Shown one piece after another: positions 5,933 to 12,457 of a stretch of 64,000 nt of DNA. Source of the DNA: Rhodospirillales bacterium (lineage in GTDB: Bacteria > Pseudomonadota > Alphaproteobacteria > ATCC43930 > CGMCC-115725); assembly GCA_947473305.1 (NCBI GenBank), contig CANJCB010000008.1, positions 1-64,000 on the forward strand. Reading direction: 5' to 3'. The notes below the pieces were generated by a model that was given only the letters and a program-made list of their open reading frames with translations, did no database searches and was not told the origin of the DNA. The position numbers and the translations under genes are program-made. The number at the start of each line of letters is the position of its first letter. The stretch's first letter is position 1.

Positions 5933-6918
5933 TCGGCGGTAGGGAACAGCACCCGCTTGGCGTTGCCTGACAGGATGCCCTCGCGCAACGCAGGCTCCAT
6001 CTCCGCGAGGATCGGCAGGGTCTTCGCGCCATGTGTATCGGCGATCTCATAGGGGTAATCGGACCCGAAGAGAACCCGGTCTCCTCCCACCAGATCGATG
6101 AGATATCCCAAGGCTCCCTTGTGCACGACGAGGCTGTCGAAATAGATCTGGGAGAGATAGGAACTCGGCGGCTGCGAGATATGCTCCCGGCACTGCGCGT
6201 TGAATTCGTATTTCGGGGCTTCCCGGGCGAGATCGAGCCGGCCCGCCAGATAAGGTAGCGTGCCCCCGCCATGGGCCAGGATCAGCCGCAGATCGGGATA
6301 GCGCTCGAAAACCCCGGAGAAGATCATCCGCGCGACGCAGAGGGTCGTTTCGGTCGGCCAGGCAACCAGTTGGAGCATGGTGTAGTCACCGATCGCCGCA
6401 CGCTCGATCCCCGTGGTCGGATGCATGAAGATCGGGCACTTCCGGCGGTTGCATTCGGCGAAAAGCGCTTCGAAAGCTCCATCGTCGAGCGGCCGCCCCG
6501 CCGCCGAGGTCGGCAGGAACACGCCGATGAGGCCGTCTTCATCCATGGCCCGCTTGATCTCCGCGACCGCATGTTCGGGCTCGGTGAGGGCGGGTACCGC
6601 GAAAGCCTGGATCATCCCGCCCGCGTTTCGGATCAGGTCGGCCGAGTGCCGGTTGATCCGCCGCGCGAGATCCCGGTCCGCCGCCAGGCGGGCATCGCTG
6701 ACGAAGCGCGGGGGCGGCGAGATGACCTGCAGCCCGATATTCATCTTCTCAAGATGGGCAAGATGCTTGTCGAGATCGTAGAGCATCGGATCGAGCGGCC
6801 CGACCTTTGGCGCCACAAATCCGTCGCCGTCGCTTTCGAGACCGAAGACATGATCCCGCGCCAACTCGCCCAGGAAGGTACGGGTCGTCGCGTGACAATG
6901 AATGTCGATGATGCTCAT
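5929..6918 (-). CDS. Amidohydrolase family 2 protein (ACMSD-like decarboxylase)
   Basis: A 329-residue TIM-barrel metal hydrolase of the amidohydrolase-2 family, which includes 2-amino-3-carboxymuconate-semialdehyde decarboxylase and gamma-resorcylate decarboxylase. The metal-binding pattern is present: HxH at the N-terminus (IDIHCHA), His in PIFMHPT, His in LILAHGGG and Asp in LFGSDYP. These enzymes are usually cytosolic, Zn-dependent, non-oxidative C-C decarboxylases. There is no kynurenine or aromatic pathway cluster around it, so the substrate is unknown. It is convergent with leuD and its start lies 29 bases from the 3' end of tRNA-Gln on the same strand. Confidence 0.82.
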   Translation of the reverse strand: MSIIDIHCHATTRTFLGELARDHVFGLESDGDGFVAPKVGPLDPMLYDLDKHLAHLEKMNIGLQVISPPPRFVSDARLAADRDLARRINRHSADLIRNAGGMIQAFAVPALTEPEHAVAEIKRAMDEDGLIGVFLPTSAAGRPLDDGAFEALFAECNRRKCPIFMHPTTGIERAAIGDYTMLQLVAWPTETTLCVARMIFSGVFERYPDLRLILAHGGGTLPYLAGRLDLAREAPKYEFNAQCREHISQPPSSYLSQIYFDSLVVHKGALGYLIDLVGGDRVLFGSDYPYEIADTHGAKTLPILAEMEPALREGILSGNAKRVLFPTAD

Positions 6919-6946: not shown

Positions 6947-7021
6947 TGGCTGGGGCGGGAGGGATCGAACCTCCGAATGGCGGAATCAAAATCCGCTGCC
7001 TTACCACTTGGCTACGCCCCA
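6947..7021 (-). tRNA. tRNA-Gln(UUG)
   Basis: The minus strand folds into a full cloverleaf of 72 nt plus an encoded CCA: acceptor TGGGGCG paired with CGCCCCA, discriminator G, D-arm GCC/GGC, anticodon stem GCGGA/TCCGC with loop TTTTGAT (anticodon TTG), and T-arm GGAGG-TTCGATC-CCTCC. The UUG anticodon and G discriminator identify glutamine. A promoter-like sequence lies at 7041-7069. Confidence 0.97.
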
Positions 7022-7069: not shown

Positions 7070-7168
7070 CCCGCGCGGAGGGGTATCGAACTGGCCTGCC
7101 CAGAGGACCATTTGTCCCTTATACTAAGGAACGGCGCGGCGGCGGGATGGACCCGAGTGACAAGAGAA

Positions 7169-8152
7169 ATGTGGGACATAGAGCGCTTGGCGCCCGACGC
7201 CCGGGATTTGGCCGAGGCTGCTGCGGCAGAAGCGGGCTGGCCCCTGACGGAATGGCTCGCAACACGGATCCGGGAGGCGGCGGCCTCGGAGCTTGGAGAC
7301 CTGCCGGAAGAAGCGTCCCCTAAGGACAAGGCGGCCCTCCTTCGTTATGCGACGCATCTTCCCACCAGCCGGCTGCGCCTGGGAAAATTCCGATCCCGCC
7401 CCTCGCCCGAGCCCGAACCGCCCGAGGCGCTGGTCGAGTCCATCGCCGTGAGCGGCATAGAGGAACCGCTCGTCCTCCGCCGCGATCCCGAGGATCCCGA
7501 AGGCTACGAGATCGTGGCGGGCGCACGCCGCTGGAAGGCCGCGGTTCAGCTCGATCTCGGCGACGTTCCGGCGGTGGTTTCCACGCTCAACGACGCCGAC
7601 GCCCTGCTGGTTTCTGTGGCGGAAAATCTGGACAAGGACGATTTTACGCCGCTCCAGGAAGCGGAAGTTTATCTGCGTCTCTTGACGGCCCTGTCCGTGC
7701 CGCCGGCGAAGCTTGCCGCGGCCATCGGTCGAGATCTTGCCTCCATCGCCCTGACCTTGCGGGTGCTGGCCTTGCCCGCGCCGGTCAAGCACGCGATCGA
7801 GGATGAGCGCCTGGGTCGGCAGGACGTGACGGGCTTGATGCAGGCCCAGGATCCCATCGCGCTTGCCGCCCGCCTGATCGACGAGCGCACGGAGATCGAC
7901 GAAGAGGGGGATGAGAGCGCCGGCCTTCCCGAGGAGATCGATCGGATCGCCAAATCGGCGGCCAAGGCTTCCGGATTGCCTGTCGCGGACTGGATCGACC
8001 GCGCGATCCGCCAGGGAGTTCCGCCGCCGCCGTCCCCGCCGCCCCGGGAGGCCGAGGTCCCGATCGAACAGTCTCTCTCGGCGCTCATCAACGCGGCCAG
8101 ACGCCACGCGGGCCTGCGGATCGCTCCCGGACCGGACGAGCCGCGGGAATAG
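7169..8152 (+). CDS. ParB-like nuclease/N-terminal-domain protein with repeated helical segments
   Basis: A 327-residue protein with a central ParB N-terminal-type fold: EALVESIAVSGIEEPLVLR, then the box II-like GARRWKAAV and ENLDKDDFTPLQEAEVY, then a helix-turn-helix-like stretch (PPAKLAAAIGRDLASIALTL). It is flanked by two related helical segments, residues 2-38 and about 260-284, which align without gaps (AAAEAGWPLTEWLATRI against AAKASGLPVADWIDRAI) and resemble the helical motif at the N-terminus of alphaproteobacterial PodJ. A Pro-rich linker and a partial third copy (NAARRHAGL) follow. It is an orphan: no parA or parS-like repeat is seen nearby. The start is uncertain; GTG at 7157 is in frame too. 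Confidence 0.72.
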   Translation: MWDIERLAPDARDLAEAAAAEAGWPLTEWLATRIREAAASELGDLPEEASPKDKAALLRYATHLPTSRLRLGKFRSRPSPEPEPPEALVESIAVSGIEEPLVLRRDPEDPEGYEIVAGARRWKAAVQLDLGDVPAVVSTLNDADALLVSVAENLDKDDFTPLQEAEVYLRLLTALSVPPAKLAAAIGRDLASIALTLRVLALPAPVKHAIEDERLGRQDVTGLMQAQDPIALAARLIDERTEIDEEGDESAGLPEEIDRIAKSAAKASGLPVADWIDRAIRQGVPPPPSPPPREAEVPIEQSLSALINAARRHAGLRIAPGPDEPRE

Positions 8153-8163
8153 AAGGAGCGCGT

Positions 8164-9042
8164 TCAGCTCAAGAGATTGCCGGCGGCGGCCCACCACGAG
8201 GACCGTTCCTCGGCGATGCGTCGCGCCGCCTCTTGCGCCTGGGCGGCCGTGCCGAAAAGCGCGAAACAGGTCGCTCCGCTGCCGCTCATCCGGGCGATCA
8301 AAGCGCCGTCGGCCCGGGCAAGCCGCTCGATCACCTCGGCGATCGAGGGCACAAGACTGATGGCGGCCTCCGTCAGATCGTTGCGGCGATGCGCCAGCAA
8401 TTCTGCGAGTTCCTCTGTGTTCCTGGGGGCTTGCGTGAAGCGGTTCGGCGGAGAGAATTCGCCATGCCTCGCCTTGAAGACCGCAGGCGTCGGAAGACCG
8501 ATACCCGGATTGACGAGCACGAGCGGGGCCGAGGGCAAGGGGGGAGCCGGAAGCACCTCCTCGCCGATCCCGCCGAGCCAGGCCCCTTTGCCGTTGAGGC
8601 AGACTGGAACATCCGCCCCCAGCGCCAAGCCAATTTTCGCGAGAGCTTCGGCCTCCGGAGATACCTCCCAGAGCGCGCAGAGCGCATTCAAGGTCGCCGC
8701 CGCATCGCTCGATCCGCCGCCGATCCCGGAGGCTACGGGGAGGTACTTGATTAGACGAAGAGCCGCCTCGGGAGGGCGGCCGAGATGTGCCGCCAGACGT
8801 TCGGCGGCGCGCCAGACAAGGTTTTCTCCGGGAGGACCATCGAGCTTCGCCGAAAAAGGTCCCTCGGCGGTGAGCGACAACCGGTCGGCGGGGGCGGCCT
8901 GAAGTTCATCGCCAATGGTGGCAAAAGCGACGAGGCTGTCGAGCAGGTGATAGCCATCCGGCCGCTTGCCCGTCACATGCAGATAGAGATTGAGCTTCGC
9001 GGGAGCCTTGCGGACGATGGGGCTCCGAAGAGCCCCGGTCAC
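8164..9042 (-). CDS. ispE: 4-diphosphocytidyl-2-C-methyl-D-erythritol kinase
   Basis: The GHMP-family kinase of the MEP (non-mevalonate) isoprenoid pathway, 292 aa, phosphorylating CDP-ME at the 2-hydroxyl. The N-terminal motif KAPAKLNLYLHV, the glycine-rich ATP loop PVASGIGGGSSDAAATL and the C-terminal SGSGATCFALF are all diagnostic. The GTG start at 9042 overlaps the TGA of the TPR lipoprotein gene by 4 bases, pointing to translational coupling; the open frame upstream is only a shadow of that gene. It is the last gene of the minus-strand run etfQO - TPR gene - ispE. Confidence 0.95.
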   Translation of the reverse strand: MTGALRSPIVRKAPAKLNLYLHVTGKRPDGYHLLDSLVAFATIGDELQAAPADRLSLTAEGPFSAKLDGPPGENLVWRAAERLAAHLGRPPEAALRLIKYLPVASGIGGGSSDAAATLNALCALWEVSPEAEALAKIGLALGADVPVCLNGKGAWLGGIGEEVLPAPPLPSAPLVLVNPGIGLPTPAVFKARHGEFSPPNRFTQAPRNTEELAELLAHRRNDLTEAAISLVPSIAEVIERLARADGALIARMSGSGATCFALFGTAAQAQEAARRIAEERSSWWAAAGNLLS

Positions 9043-10772
9043 CCGCCGCGCGCCGGTTTCGCCGGCGCTTCCAGACCACGGTCGAGCTTCGCCTCGATCG
9101 GCTTCACCTGATCGGCCTCGGGCTGGAACTGAAGCGCCCGGTTCCATTGGAAGCGCGCTTCCACCTGCCGTCCCGTCTGCCAATAGGCATCGCCCAGATG
9201 GTCGTTGATCGTGGGATCTTCGGGCTTCAGCTCGATCGCCCTTTCGAGATAAGTCGCTGCATTGGGGAAATCGCCGAGCCGGTAATAGGCCCAGCCGAGG
9301 CTGTCGACGATATAGCCGTCGTTGGGGCGAAGCTGCACCGCGCGGGCGATCATCTTGAGGGCGGCATCCAACTTCACGCCCCGGTCGATCCAGGAATATC
9401 CCAGGTAATTGAGCACGGAAGGCTGCTCGGGTTGCAGATGAAGGGCCTGCTCGAGATCGGCTTCGGCTTCTTTCCAATCGCCCGACCGTTCCCGCGCCAC
9501 GCCACGACTGTAAAAGAGCGTCCAATGCCGCGATTGGGGATCGCCGATACGCTGCAAGGCGCCGTCATAGGCGGTGATCGCTTCCTTGAAGCGCTCCCGG
9601 CCCCGTAGCACGTTGCCCAAGGCGAGCAAGGGCTCAGCCTGATCCGGGCGTTCCGCCGCCATCGCCTTGAAGCCCGCGACGGAAGCATCGGTCTGGCCGA
9701 TGGAATCGAGAATCGACGCCGCCCGCAACCGGGCGGTCCAGGAGAAGGGCGATTTCACATCGATCGCCTGATAGACCGCCAGGGCTTCGCTGTCGTGACG
9801 CTGCGCCTCTGCGATATCCGCGACCAGAAGCTGCGCCAGGGGGAAATCCGGCCGCAGGAAAAGCGCGAGCCGGCCATAGACCAGGGCCAGGTCGATCGTT
9901 TCCCTTTGGTTCAGCAGGCTCGCAAGATCGAAGAGGGCTTCCGCCGCGCCGTCCTTCGCGGTGGTGACACGGGCAGCAGGCTTTCCTCCCGCCGCAAGCC
10001 GCGCCAGCGTCGTGCGCACAAGGTCATGATCGGGATTTTCAGAGCGGAACCGCTCATAGATCCGGCGCGCTTCGTCAGCCCTGCCCTGGCGTTCCAGGAA
10101 GTTGCCGAACATGTCCACGATGCGCCAATTGGGATGAGCCGTCGCATCGTGGACCTTGCGATAGCTGGCCTCGGCCGCCACGGTCTTTCCGCCGAAATCG
10201 GCGATGAGCGCGGCGTGAAAATCCTTGAGGGTCCCGAAACCCCTGGCCGCGTCCAGCACGTTGAGCGCCGCAATGCCCTCGTCGAGTTGGCCCGCCCCCG
10301 CATCCGTCCAGGCGATCATGAGAGGGGAAACGAAACGCTGAATCCCTTCCTTGGGCAAGGAAAGCGCCTGGGCGGCCGCCGCCTTGAAATCGCCTTTCGC
10401 GACAACTTCAAGCAGCAGCGTCAAAGGCACCACAGGCGAGTTGGGATCGACCGCGGCGATCCTATGCGCGAGTTCCATCGCCTCGGCGATGCGGCCCTCG
10501 CTGACGCGGAGCAGGAAGGTCCTCCGGGCAAGATCGAGATTGTCCGGATCGGCGGTGAGGGCTCGCCCCAGGTATTCCGCCGCCCGGCCGTAATCATGGG
10601 TCTGCTGGGCGTAGCGGCCGGCGAGATAGTTTCCCGAGACAGTCTTCCCGAGAGGCGCGGCGGACGAGGCCACGGGCTGCGCATCGGCGTGCTGATCGGG
10701 TAGCCCGCAGGCGGTAAGCGTTGCAACCAGAAGGGCAACGCTCGCGAGCCGTCTTGGCGGCCAGAGGCTCAT
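9039..10772 (-). CDS. Tetratricopeptide-repeat lipoprotein
   Basis: A 577-residue protein with a signal peptide ending in a lipobox (VATLTAC, lipidated C22), so predicted to be membrane-anchored on the periplasmic side. After a linker it is helical TPR repeats to near the C-terminus; the clearest units are in the last third (for example LNYLGYSWIDRG, VDSLGWAYYRLGDF and INDHLGDAYWQTGR, each followed by the spaced acidic/Ala pattern). Similar TPR proteins sit upstream of ispE in related bacteria. TPR folds bind other proteins; no enzymatic motif is visible and the partner is unknown. It is translationally coupled to ispE and starts 18 bases after the etfQO stop. Confidence 0.85.
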   Translation of the reverse strand: MSLWPPRRLASVALLVATLTACGLPDQHADAQPVASSAAPLGKTVSGNYLAGRYAQQTHDYGRAAEYLGRALTADPDNLDLARRTFLLRVSEGRIAEAMELAHRIAAVDPNSPVVPLTLLLEVVAKGDFKAAAAQALSLPKEGIQRFVSPLMIAWTDAGAGQLDEGIAALNVLDAARGFGTLKDFHAALIADFGGKTVAAEASYRKVHDATAHPNWRIVDMFGNFLERQGRADEARRIYERFRSENPDHDLVRTTLARLAAGGKPAARVTTAKDGAAEALFDLASLLNQRETIDLALVYGRLALFLRPDFPLAQLLVADIAEAQRHDSEALAVYQAIDVKSPFSWTARLRAASILDSIGQTDASVAGFKAMAAERPDQAEPLLALGNVLRGRERFKEAITAYDGALQRIGDPQSRHWTLFYSRGVARERSGDWKEAEADLEQALHLQPEQPSVLNYLGYSWIDRGVKLDAALKMIARAVQLRPNDGYIVDSLGWAYYRLGDFPNAATYLERAIELKPEDPTINDHLGDAYWQTGRQVEARFQWNRALQFQPEADQVKPIEAKLDRGLEAPAKPARGG

Positions 10773-10790: not shown

Positions 10791-12413
10791 TCACATATTG
10801 GGATAGTTCGGACCGCCGCCGCCCTCGGGCACCGTCCAATTGATGTTCTGCGTCGGATCCTTGATGTCGCAGGTCTTACAATGCACGCAGTTCTGCGCAT
10901 TGATCTGCAGCTTCGGGTTCGACCCATCCGCGTCCTTCACGATCTCATAGACACCCGCCGGACAATAGCGCTGTTCGGGGGAGTCGTAGAGACGATAATT
11001 GGTGTCAATTGCCTTCGAAGGATCCAGCAGCTTCAGATGAGCCGGCTGGTTTTCCTCGTGGTTGGTGTTCGAAATGAAGACCGAAGACAGCCGGTCGAAG
11101 CTGACGACCCCGTCCGGCTTCGGATATTGGATCGGCGTCGCCTCGCTCTTCGTCTTCAAATGAAGGTGATCGGGCGAGTGATGGAGCGTCCAGGGCGCCT
11201 TGCCCCGGAAGAGATAAGTGTCGATCGCCGCATGGGCGAGACCCGCCCACATGCCCCATTTAAAGGCCGGGCGGATATTCCGGACCGACTTGAGCTCGGG
11301 CCAGATCCAGCTTTCCTCCAGCGCCTTGCGGTAATCCGCCTTTTCGTCGCCGCCAAGCTTAGCGAAGATCGTTTCCGCCGCGACCATGCCGGATTTCATC
11401 GCAGTATGGCTGCCCTTGATCTTGGGCACATTGAGGAAACCCGCCCCGCAGCCCATCAGAAGCCCGCCGGGGAAGGTGAGTTCCGGGATCGCCTGGAACC
11501 CACCCTCGTTGAGCGCCCGCGCGCCATAGGCGATCCGCCGCCCGCCCTCGAAGAAGGGACGGATGTCGGGATGGGTCTTGAAGCGCTGGAATTCCTCGAA
11601 GGGGCTCAGGAAAGGGTTGTCGTAGTCGAGCCCGATCACGAAGCCGACGGCGACCTGATTGTTTTCCAGATGATAAAGGAAGGAGCCGCCATAGGTGTCG
11701 CTGGCCAACGGCCAGCCGATGGTATGGATGATCCTGCCTTCGCTGTGCTTGGCGGGATCGATCTCCCAGAGTTCCTTGATCCCGATGCCATAAGTCTGGG
11801 GATCGTGGCCTTCGCGCAGATGGAAGCGTTCCACCAGGGTCTTGGTGAGCGACCCCCGGCAGCCTTCGCCGAAAAGGATTTCCTTCGCCCTGAGCTCGAC
11901 GCCGAGTTGGAAATTGTCGGTCGGCTCGCCGTCCTTGCCGATGCCCATGCTGCCCGTGGCGACGCCGACGACACGACCCGTCTCGTCATAAAGCACTTCG
12001 GCCGCGGCGAAGCCCGGGTAGATTTCCACCCCGAGTTCTTCGGCCTGGGTCGCCAGCCAGCGGCAAAGGTTGCCGAGGCTGATGATGTAATTGCCCTTGT
12101 TGTGCATCTGCGGCGGCGTCGGAAGCTGGAACGAGCGCCACTCGTTGAGGAAGAGGAACTTGTCTTCCCGCGCCGGTGTGTTGAGCGGAGCGCCGCGCTC
12201 CTTCCAATCCGGGATCAATTCGGTGAGGGCGCGCGGTTCGAAGACTGCGCCGGAGAGGATATGAGCCCCGATCTCCGAGCCTTTTTCCACGATGCAGACC
12301 GAAAGGTCCTGTTCGGCAGCCGCTGCCAGCTGCTTCAGACGGATCGCCGCCGCAAGGCCCGAGGGGCCACCGCCCACGACGACGACGTCATATTCCATGA
12401 CCTCACGATCCAT
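10791..12413 (-). CDS. etfQO: Electron transfer flavoprotein-ubiquinone oxidoreductase
   Basis: The inner-membrane-associated enzyme (540 aa) that passes electrons from reduced ETF, coming from acyl-CoA and other dehydrogenases, to ubiquinone. The N-terminal FAD-binding motif [19 protein letters not shown] is intact, and the C-terminal ferredoxin-like part keeps the [4Fe-4S] cysteines in YCPAGVYE and [20 protein letters not shown] at 12413 is preferred; GTG at 12425 is in frame. The ETF subunits themselves are not in the window. It is the first gene of a minus-strand run with the TPR lipoprotein and ispE, and is divergent from the uracil-DNA glycosylase gene. Confidence 0.95.
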
Positions 12414-12457
12414 TCTTGACCCCACCCTCCGTCATCCAAATCGACAATCCGACAAGG

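Follow-up and report, generated by a model that had tools for sequence, protein, structure and literature searches.

An orphan ParB-type gene joined in frame to the leading module of its neighbour at a conserved alphaproteobacterial locus beside ispE

The window analysed here, a stretch of 64,000 nucleotides from a Rhodospirillales genome, carries a gene whose product combines a ParB-type core with two copies of a short helical module (Table 1). A longer frame running from position 6902 crosses the antisense tRNA-Gln at 6947-7021, so that the start at 7169 or the GTG at 7157 is plausible. At the other end, 11 bases separate the stop codon from the end of the convergent ispE. Third-position GC amounts to 79% for the gene as a whole and to 82% for residues 241-327; the values are similar in the neighbouring genes, which argues that the tail is coding. 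A promoter scan around the gene returned none, the one terminator-like match inside it compares with an average of 0.9 in shuffles, and none of the four inverted repeats that flank or surround the gene is parS-like.

Table 1. The fusion gene, its predicted parts and its conserved neighbours, in window coordinates
Feature	Position	Strand	Remarks
Gene A-C fusion	7169..8152	+	327 aa; start possibly further upstream, at the in-frame GTG at 7157
tRNA-Gln (anticodon TTG)	6947..7021	-	ARAGORN; divergent from the fusion gene
Module 1, gene-A type, ribbon-helix-helix (RHH)-like	7172..7291	+	Residues 2-41; profile 38.7 bits
ParB_N (CTPase fold)	7355..7630	+	Residues 63-154; Pfam E 7e-16, 58.5 bits, over cut-off
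HTH_ParB (DNA-binding)	7640..7852	+	Residues 158-228; Pfam E 1.3e-8, 35.4 bits, over cut-off
Module 2, gene-C type, in-frame fusion	7922..8026	+	Residues 252-286; profile 30.3 bits
Pro-rich tail and predicted helix 299-313	8027..8149	+	No third module, no strong hydrophobic helix
ispE, convergent	8164..9525 (ORF)	-	NCBIfam NF011202, 343 bits against a cut-off of 204; match from ORF residue 170
TPR protein, conserved neighbour	9039..10772	-	Domain match and synteny
ETF-ubiquinone oxidoreductase (ETF-QO), conserved neighbour	10791..12425	-	Pfam Fer4_ETF_QO and ETFQO_UQ-bd, and synteny

The protein passes the NCBIfam cut-off for the ParB/RepB/Spo0J partition domain (TIGR00180) and stays far under those for Noc and RepB, scoring 99.8 bits with nucleoid_noc against a cut-off of 315. 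Pfam returned no match in it to the ParB_C dimerisation domain at E <= 10, nor to Sel1 or PG-binding domains, and its top 19-residue hydropathy is 1.41. Within the window, neither a parS-like site with up to 3 mismatches nor, by regular expression in ORFs of at least 30 aa, a ParA-type Walker motif was found. The canonical parA-parB pair of this genome sits on contig C2, together with one exact and one one-mismatch parS (parA assigned by eye), and its ParB shares 41% identity over 166 residues with the window protein.

The ParB core is flanked by two repeats. Smith-Waterman comparison of residues 1-50 with residues 246-300 scores 55, a value reached by none of 5000 shuffles, and a profile built from the module segments of 20 relatives, with both window rows excluded, gives 38.7 bits for residues 2-41 and 30.3 bits for residues 252-286, the next-best of the 1023 ORFs in the window reaching 6.4 bits. 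The module comprises about 40 residues of the pattern W-x4-L-x4-R-x2-A-x2-A-x4-G-x5-WL-x3-I. Its two copies are of different types: a profile of what we call gene A, introduced below, scores module 1 with 39.2 and module 2 with 15.0 bits, and a profile of gene C scores module 2 with 27.5 and module 1 with 17.0 bits. For module 1, helices are predicted at residues 9-22 and 26-42, with a block-mean pLDDT of 85-96 over residues 1-40; module 2 is predicted with low confidence (block-mean pLDDT 45-62), and the AlphaFold model of the window protein shows no internal pairing of the two. The repeats that a sequence-only reading of this DNA had proposed are thus real. The similar segments do lie at residues 14-38 and 260-284, where that reading placed them, and extend slightly wider on both sides of the core. 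What it took for perhaps a third repeat, residues 296-327, has to be dropped, as 3445 and 1474 of 5000 shuffles match its similarity to the other two.

In relatives, found through a first search of 61 genomes and then a local profile search, the two modules belong to two neighbouring genes. Gene A codes for the module, a linker and the ParB part; directly downstream, gene C codes for a module followed by a Pro-rich part, a hydrophobic helix and Sel1 repeats. Strong module matches (>= 42 bits) occur in 12 of the 39 same-family genomes, exactly two in each and no more than 1.3 kb apart, and all remaining same-family matches stay at or below 31 bits. Eight of these 12 genomes contributed rows to the profile; G006, G008, G017 and G026 did not. 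The multi-genome searches scored the best 24-150 candidates per genome, so absence there is no proof; among the candidates scored, 6 of 11 same-family genera are without a strong module pair. The two matches lie in different reading frames in 11 of the 12 genomes and share one ORF only in the genome of the window. In all 10 same-family pairs examined, out of 11, the stop of gene A overlaps the start of gene C (ATGA or TGATG), so that one frameshift and one deletion would suffice to fuse and shorten the pair. The hydrophobic helix and Sel1 parts of gene C are absent from the fusion and, with this membrane half missing, the window protein is predicted to be soluble. Among the candidates scored in its own genome, the two modules of the window gene are the only matches at E <= 0.01. 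Sel1 matches on contigs C19 and C75, considered as a leftover gene C, lie in ORFs without a visible module and were rejected. The window tail had seemed to share a short motif with gene C, but a small profile made from that motif missed the window protein, so the fused gene-C part is claimed only through module 2. At the level of sequence, these comparisons show the window gene to be, by synteny, the orthologue of gene A with the gene-C module joined on in frame, and the cluster and fusion architecture are well supported. Accordingly, a duplication within the gene explains the C-terminal copy less well than the start of a neighbouring, separate gene does.

The arrangement is not confined to the window's family. 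A module match at E <= 1e-6 was found in at least 64 of 288 genomes drawn from the class. We fetched 20 places, 19 of them chosen for at least two neighbouring matches and one, L061, with a single match; 10 further places comprised the window's own, eight same-family pairs and the G047 place, and the synteny scan added L031 and L032. In these loci, mostly picked for neighbouring module matches, the cluster lies near ispE in 27 of 32 with the window included (26 of the 31 others, within about 3 kb); ispE is not near the cluster in L053, L054, L061, L077 (contig edge) and L082. The distance from gene C to the ispE match is below 350 bases in 23 of the 26 other loci and wider in L055 (1.1 kb, where the gene C frame is broken), L064 (1.1 kb) and L073 (2.7 kb). 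A TPR gene comes after ispE and, in the longer stretches, ETF-QO as well, giving a locus of module genes A, (B) and C with convergent ispE, TPR and ETF-QO genes that is seen in many alphaproteobacterial families. The tRNA-Gln(ttg) accompanies 20 of the 30 loci scanned, corresponding to 18 of 28 distinct places, no more than a few hundred bases from the first module gene in 13 places and at 2-3 kb in 5; it occurs in none of the seven same-family loci scanned, yet is present in the window.

Across a phylum sample of 299 genomes, 26 of the 27 with module matches (window included; at least 27) came from the window's class, in a sample whose share of other classes is not given. A genome-contig scan gave 468 loci, of which 80 were kept; two of these, from the MAGs REEB11 and REEB257 ('Alphaproteobacteria bacterium'), have the module, and 78 are without it. 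Family f75 has a PodJ-like open frame of 971-1013 aa beside a gene-B-like ORF, with no ispE in the stretch fetched. In family f151 (e.g. L219-L223), from genomes of 6-9 Mb of the same class, the module occurs in open frames of about 1130-1225 aa, which are possibly PodJ/Sel1-type proteins. The locus of G056 has four consecutive module genes (a ParB-type A, B, a two-module B and C) adjoining ispE, the gene-B-like protein with two modules being encoded at L031:5162-5944 (-). A Phaeospirillum protein (L166:1414-2775 (-)) combines TniQ (Pfam PF06527, E 3e-31) with a module near its C terminus (31 bits). TniQ is a family used by Tn7-like transposons, and this example indicates that the module is also used outside the ispE cluster.

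What fold might the module have? Neither Pfam nor NCBIfam has a family for it. Up to E 1, 22 module members gave Pfam matches to HicB (5), TacA1 (2), NikA-like (2), RuvA_C (2), YebC_N (2) and PSK_trans_fac (1); HicB, TacA1, NikA-like and PSK_trans_fac we take to be RHH families. A single member, gene A of G009, scores 21.2 bits with HicB and lies just over its cut-off of 21. When 10 members were rechecked in each of two rounds, non-RHH families at E 0.04-0.1 or no family at all came up for 6 members in one round and 7 in the other; for most members, no match to an RHH family falls below E 0.1, and RuvA_C and YebC_N match the module as weakly as the RHH families do. The window protein reaches 15.5 bits with TacA1 against a cut-off of 21, and its module 2 matches no RHH family at E <= 0.1. 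In an alignment of profiles, hhalign scores the module with 23.3 against a TacA1-like set and 26.7 against a NikA-like set, and none of 200 column shuffles scored as high, the highest being 22.3 for TacA1 and 14.7 for NikA-like. Of the 14 TacA1 and 10 NikA-like loci, 8 and 3 respectively went into these sets, chosen because they read cleanly on the + strand.

The AlphaFold models of the window and L031 proteins show two helices joined by a tight turn, with the RHH strand not modelled. Foldseek with the L031 model returned nothing significant (best E 0.29), though 13 of its 22 matches are RHH chains, and VIA returned 17 RHH chains among 26 matches (both counts by reading of the entries), with a best Z of 5.1 over 48 residues. 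A PDB profile search with the module gave nothing below E 0.027, and the match at that value (TssA) spans 20 residues. The most conserved residues of the module are A, G, W and I and not basic ones, and the position of the RHH strand is acidic here (WDIERLA in the window; WQFDQLS and WSDMDVD in relatives). Together, the profile comparisons and models make it likely that the module is most like the helix-turn-helix half of RHH domains, which is why we refer to it as RHH-like. In a Sinorhizobium meliloti stretch with a PodJ-like gene, it has no match at E <= 1, and among the candidates scored in genomes of named records, 14 of 15 gave none at E <= 1e-4. When a plasmid collection was searched with PodJ-like and gene-C queries, the best 15 matches of each fell in the Sel1 or PG-binding part, none in the module.

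Genes A, B and C each start with this RHH-like module of about 40 residues, and in many families the cluster order is A-B-C. Gene B codes for about 150-290 aa, with a conserved ERA-x2-R stretch besides the module, and the one gene B modelled has long helices after its modules. By eye, the small ParB-less gene As of L055:5253-5618 (-), L071:3974-4228 (-) and L072:5097-5354 (-) end in SIERAM(M/L)R, similar to the ERA-x2-R of gene B. Among 10 gene C or PodJ-like proteins, Pfam recognised Sel1 in all and PG_binding_1 in nine; three further gene Cs, two of them same-family, have Sel1 only and no PG-binding match, and the PodJ-like ORF of L037 has both. A hydrophobic 19-mer of at least 1.8 is present in 26 of 30 gene C or PodJ-like proteins. 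Gene A varies in what follows the module. ParB_N and HTH occur together in the window, G018 and G047 by Pfam and in others by alignment; HTH_ParB stands without ParB_N in 6 of the 12 same-family gene As; and the ParB HTH is kept in all 12 (by Pfam in 10, by alignment in G016 and G028). In other families, 11 gene As, read by eye, are module proteins without any ParB, so the cluster does not depend on a ParB part.

How does the ParB core of gene A relate to the canonical protein? In 11 of the 12 gene-A genomes checked, the window's included, a separate and higher-scoring ParB is also present. In a maximum-likelihood tree of 39 ParB cores, 11 gene As fall on one side of a branch, apart from the canonical ParBs, with support 94/76, and in a reduced tree all 9 gene As do so with 97/99; the latter dropped the gene As of G112 and G047, whose branches are very long, along with two canonical rows, Legionella and G060. 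The window lies inside the same-family gene-A set with 100/99 in both trees, on a long branch of about 2.0 changes per site. Excluded from both trees was the weak ParB-like ORF of contig C60 of the window genome, a 785-residue frame (L169) whose HTH_ParB match at G000:C60:13939-14181 (-), the third in that genome, scores 22.3 bits (23.1 with frame neighbours). In G056, a genome 93% complete, gene A (G056:C45:22251-22535) is the only HTH_ParB protein found, and it keeps GERR and GKSRSHVSN; it may have replaced the canonical ParB, or the assembly may miss the latter. The single HTH_ParB protein of G317 is not a gene A.

The LGRGL ParA-binding motif is present in 3 of 3 canonical ParBs and in 0 of 8 gene As (window included), and in gene A the module occupies its place. 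In the window protein, R75 and A119 stand at the positions of Q58 and E102 of Caulobacter ParB, which are proposed to be catalytic; R120, R121, E152 and N153 are kept, and K156 replaces R139. The Caulobacter numbering was derived from a constant shift of 10 that separates the 6t1f chain numbers from the published Q58, E102 and E135. The E102A variant of Caulobacter ParB is reported to bind CTP and close without hydrolysis (PMC8367383). The recognition-helix stretch, residues 187-195, reads GRDLASIAL in the window protein instead of GKSRSHVAN. Two gene As of family f105 keep all tabulated CTPase positions and GKSRSHIAN, and that of G056 keeps most; gene A of G047 has a ParB_C match under the cut-off. 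In 378,537 bases from 35 partly overlapping cluster loci, one parS-like site with 3 mismatches was found. With the recognition helix changed and no parS nearby, DNA binding by the window protein is uncertain. The comparison also reveals a lineage of ParB paralogues that retain the HTH and the module, their CTPase fold having diverged or gone missing.

These results bear out in part what the sequence-only reading had proposed about the protein's kind. Its description as an orphan, non-standard ParB holds, given the missing ParA-binding motif, the lack of a ParB_C match and the window free of parS and ParA-type motifs; no parA or parS cluster lies in the window, the canonical pair being on contig C2. 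The repeats are conserved in orthologues, the module being kept in the nine gene-A relatives first aligned (one without the first W), and shuffles, profile scores and the hhalign scores against RHH sets set them apart from generic Ala-rich helices. Comparison of neighbourhoods, which that reading had suggested, places the gene in a conserved syntenic locus beside ispE. The supposed likeness to PodJ survives in part: the module heads proteins of PodJ architecture, but is not matched in the S. meliloti PodJ-like stretch. As a non-standard orphan ParB whose repeats match the module heading such proteins, the window protein can reasonably be read as a polarity or nucleoid-position adaptor, as was proposed.

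A module shared by a ParB relative and an envelope-spanning neighbour suggests a protein link between chromosome and envelope. For the window protein, we see an even chance that it is a ParB-derived DNA-binding protein of a type that uses RHH-like modules to pair with a PodJ-like scaffold, shortened here to one soluble protein; the tethering of the chromosome to the envelope is the mechanism we infer for this type. RHH domains are dimers, and the modules of genes A, B and C would pair with one another in the same manner. Pairing of A with C would be the simplest function, since adjacent, overlapping genes share one RHH-like module. The ParB-type HTH of gene A would then hold DNA at the envelope or pole through gene C, similar to Noc's route to the membrane, but with a protein partner in place of a membrane-binding helix. 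DNA binding and the module would form the core of such a system, and the CTP switch could be dispensable or optional, as all 12 same-family gene As retain the HTH but 6 of them are without ParB_N, and the window protein is without the two proposed catalytic residues. In the window, where the modules of A and C are in one soluble chain, they might pair internally or recruit another partner; the protein may thus work through another partner, or be on its way out.

The most serious competitors to such a link concern what the modules do and whether the window gene still does anything. Most RHH domains bind DNA, and if the modules did so too, gene C would be a membrane protein gripping the nucleoid, gene A would bind DNA with two heads, and the fusion in the window would be a soluble regulator of transcription. 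RHH DNA-binding proteins do make up most of the module's best profile and fold matches, and a ParB HTH is kept besides the module in gene A of all 12 same-family genomes; however, the module is acidic where RHH domains carry the DNA-reading strand, no strand is modelled, and its top conserved residues are not basic, so we regard DNA-binding modules as rather unlikely. Similarly low is the probability we assign to the window gene being a functionless, decaying remnant in which deletion has left nothing of gene C but its module and a short tail. Such decay would fit the loss of the hydrophobic helix and Sel1 part, the 11 bases left to ispE, the absence of the fusion from every other same-family genome with the pair, the strong pair missing in 6 of 11 genera among the candidates scored, and the long branch of about 2.0 changes per site. 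But the frame is open over 327 codons with a third-position GC like that of its neighbours (79%, and 82% in residues 241-327), and ParB_N, HTH_ParB and both modules are still recognisable.

Two further readings fare worse. That the protein is an ordinary second ParB in chromosome partition is mostly refuted and in our view highly improbable: its ParB_N and HTH_ParB do pass the Pfam cut-offs, and it is 41% identical over 166 residues to the canonical ParB, but ParA-type motif, parS, ParA-binding motif and ParB_C match are all missing, the recognition helix and proposed catalytic residues are changed, and a canonical parA-parB exists elsewhere in the genome. Chance likeness of two Ala-rich helices, which both segments are, is refuted by the 0 of 5000 shuffles, by the 38.7 and 30.3 bits against 6.4 for the next ORF and by paired syntenic conservation, and retains practically no probability. 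Returning to the paired-module link, its widest form goes beyond the window protein and is correspondingly more tentative, with odds we put at about one in three: an undescribed alphaproteobacterial chromosome-envelope tether, in which a ParB paralogue bearing an RHH-like module in place of the ParA-binding motif would use that module to dimerise with an envelope-spanning scaffold of the PodJ type and with a coiled-coil partner, all encoded beside ispE; the window protein, with both modules in one chain and a CTP switch that has lost its proposed catalytic residues, would be a switch-free linker.

Finally, we would like to place this locus among known systems. Noc (7nfu) is the best Foldseek match of the window model and is likewise an orphan with the ParB fold, encoded away from parAB and equipped with an N-terminal element of its own. 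In Noc, that element is an amphipathic helix that recruits DNA to the membrane (PMC8429893). In the window protein, however, the N terminus is an RHH-like module that the neighbouring genes share, a hydrophobic helix being encoded in one of them, and the protein is without a ParB_C match and has two proposed catalytic residues changed. PadC of Myxococcus, which works with bactofilins, is also represented among the Foldseek matches (6ryk). It is described as ParB-like, without noticeable CTPase activity (PMC8367383). In its published layout, PodJ has coiled coils and a disordered region in the cytoplasm, a single TM helix, TPR/Sel1 repeats on the periplasmic side and a peptidoglycan-binding domain (PMC8980812, PMC9926476). 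Gene C shares this layout, with the module, one hydrophobic helix, Sel1 and usually a PG-binding domain; the two same-family gene Cs tested differ in having no PG-binding match, and the window gene differs more, with the module alone and neither coiled coils, TM nor periplasmic parts. With RHH proteins (CopG, Arc, TacA, HicB, NikA-like, MatP), the module shares the profile register and the helix-turn-helix geometry, and 1 of 22 members is just over the HicB cut-off; in contrast, the other members with cut-offs shown stay below, the strand is not modelled and its region is acidic.

A recent survey of the ParB-CTPase fold (PNAS 2025) catalogues fusions to Pfam domains and describes most bacterial 'single-domain' members as long and likely to have domains absent from Pfam-A (PMC12704722). 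The gene-A family, an orphan ParB with a lineage-specific extra domain, fits this 'long single-domain' class; Sel1 and RHH, however, are absent from the survey's main text by term search (PMC12704722). Pfam-based surveys would miss the module, for which neither Pfam nor NCBIfam has a family, and a search of the open-licence literature by title and abstract found no published description of the A-(B)-C locus or of the module. How chromosome position is linked to the pole in alphaproteobacteria is an active question, which has been described, for the most part in Caulobacter, through PopZ, ParB, MipZ and PodJ. As an orphan ParB paralogue that has an adaptor domain, gene A would be of a known kind, the combination of this module with this locus appearing to be new. 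A locus that joins a ParB paralogue and PodJ-architecture proteins by a shared module offers a concrete candidate for such a pole link outside the model species.
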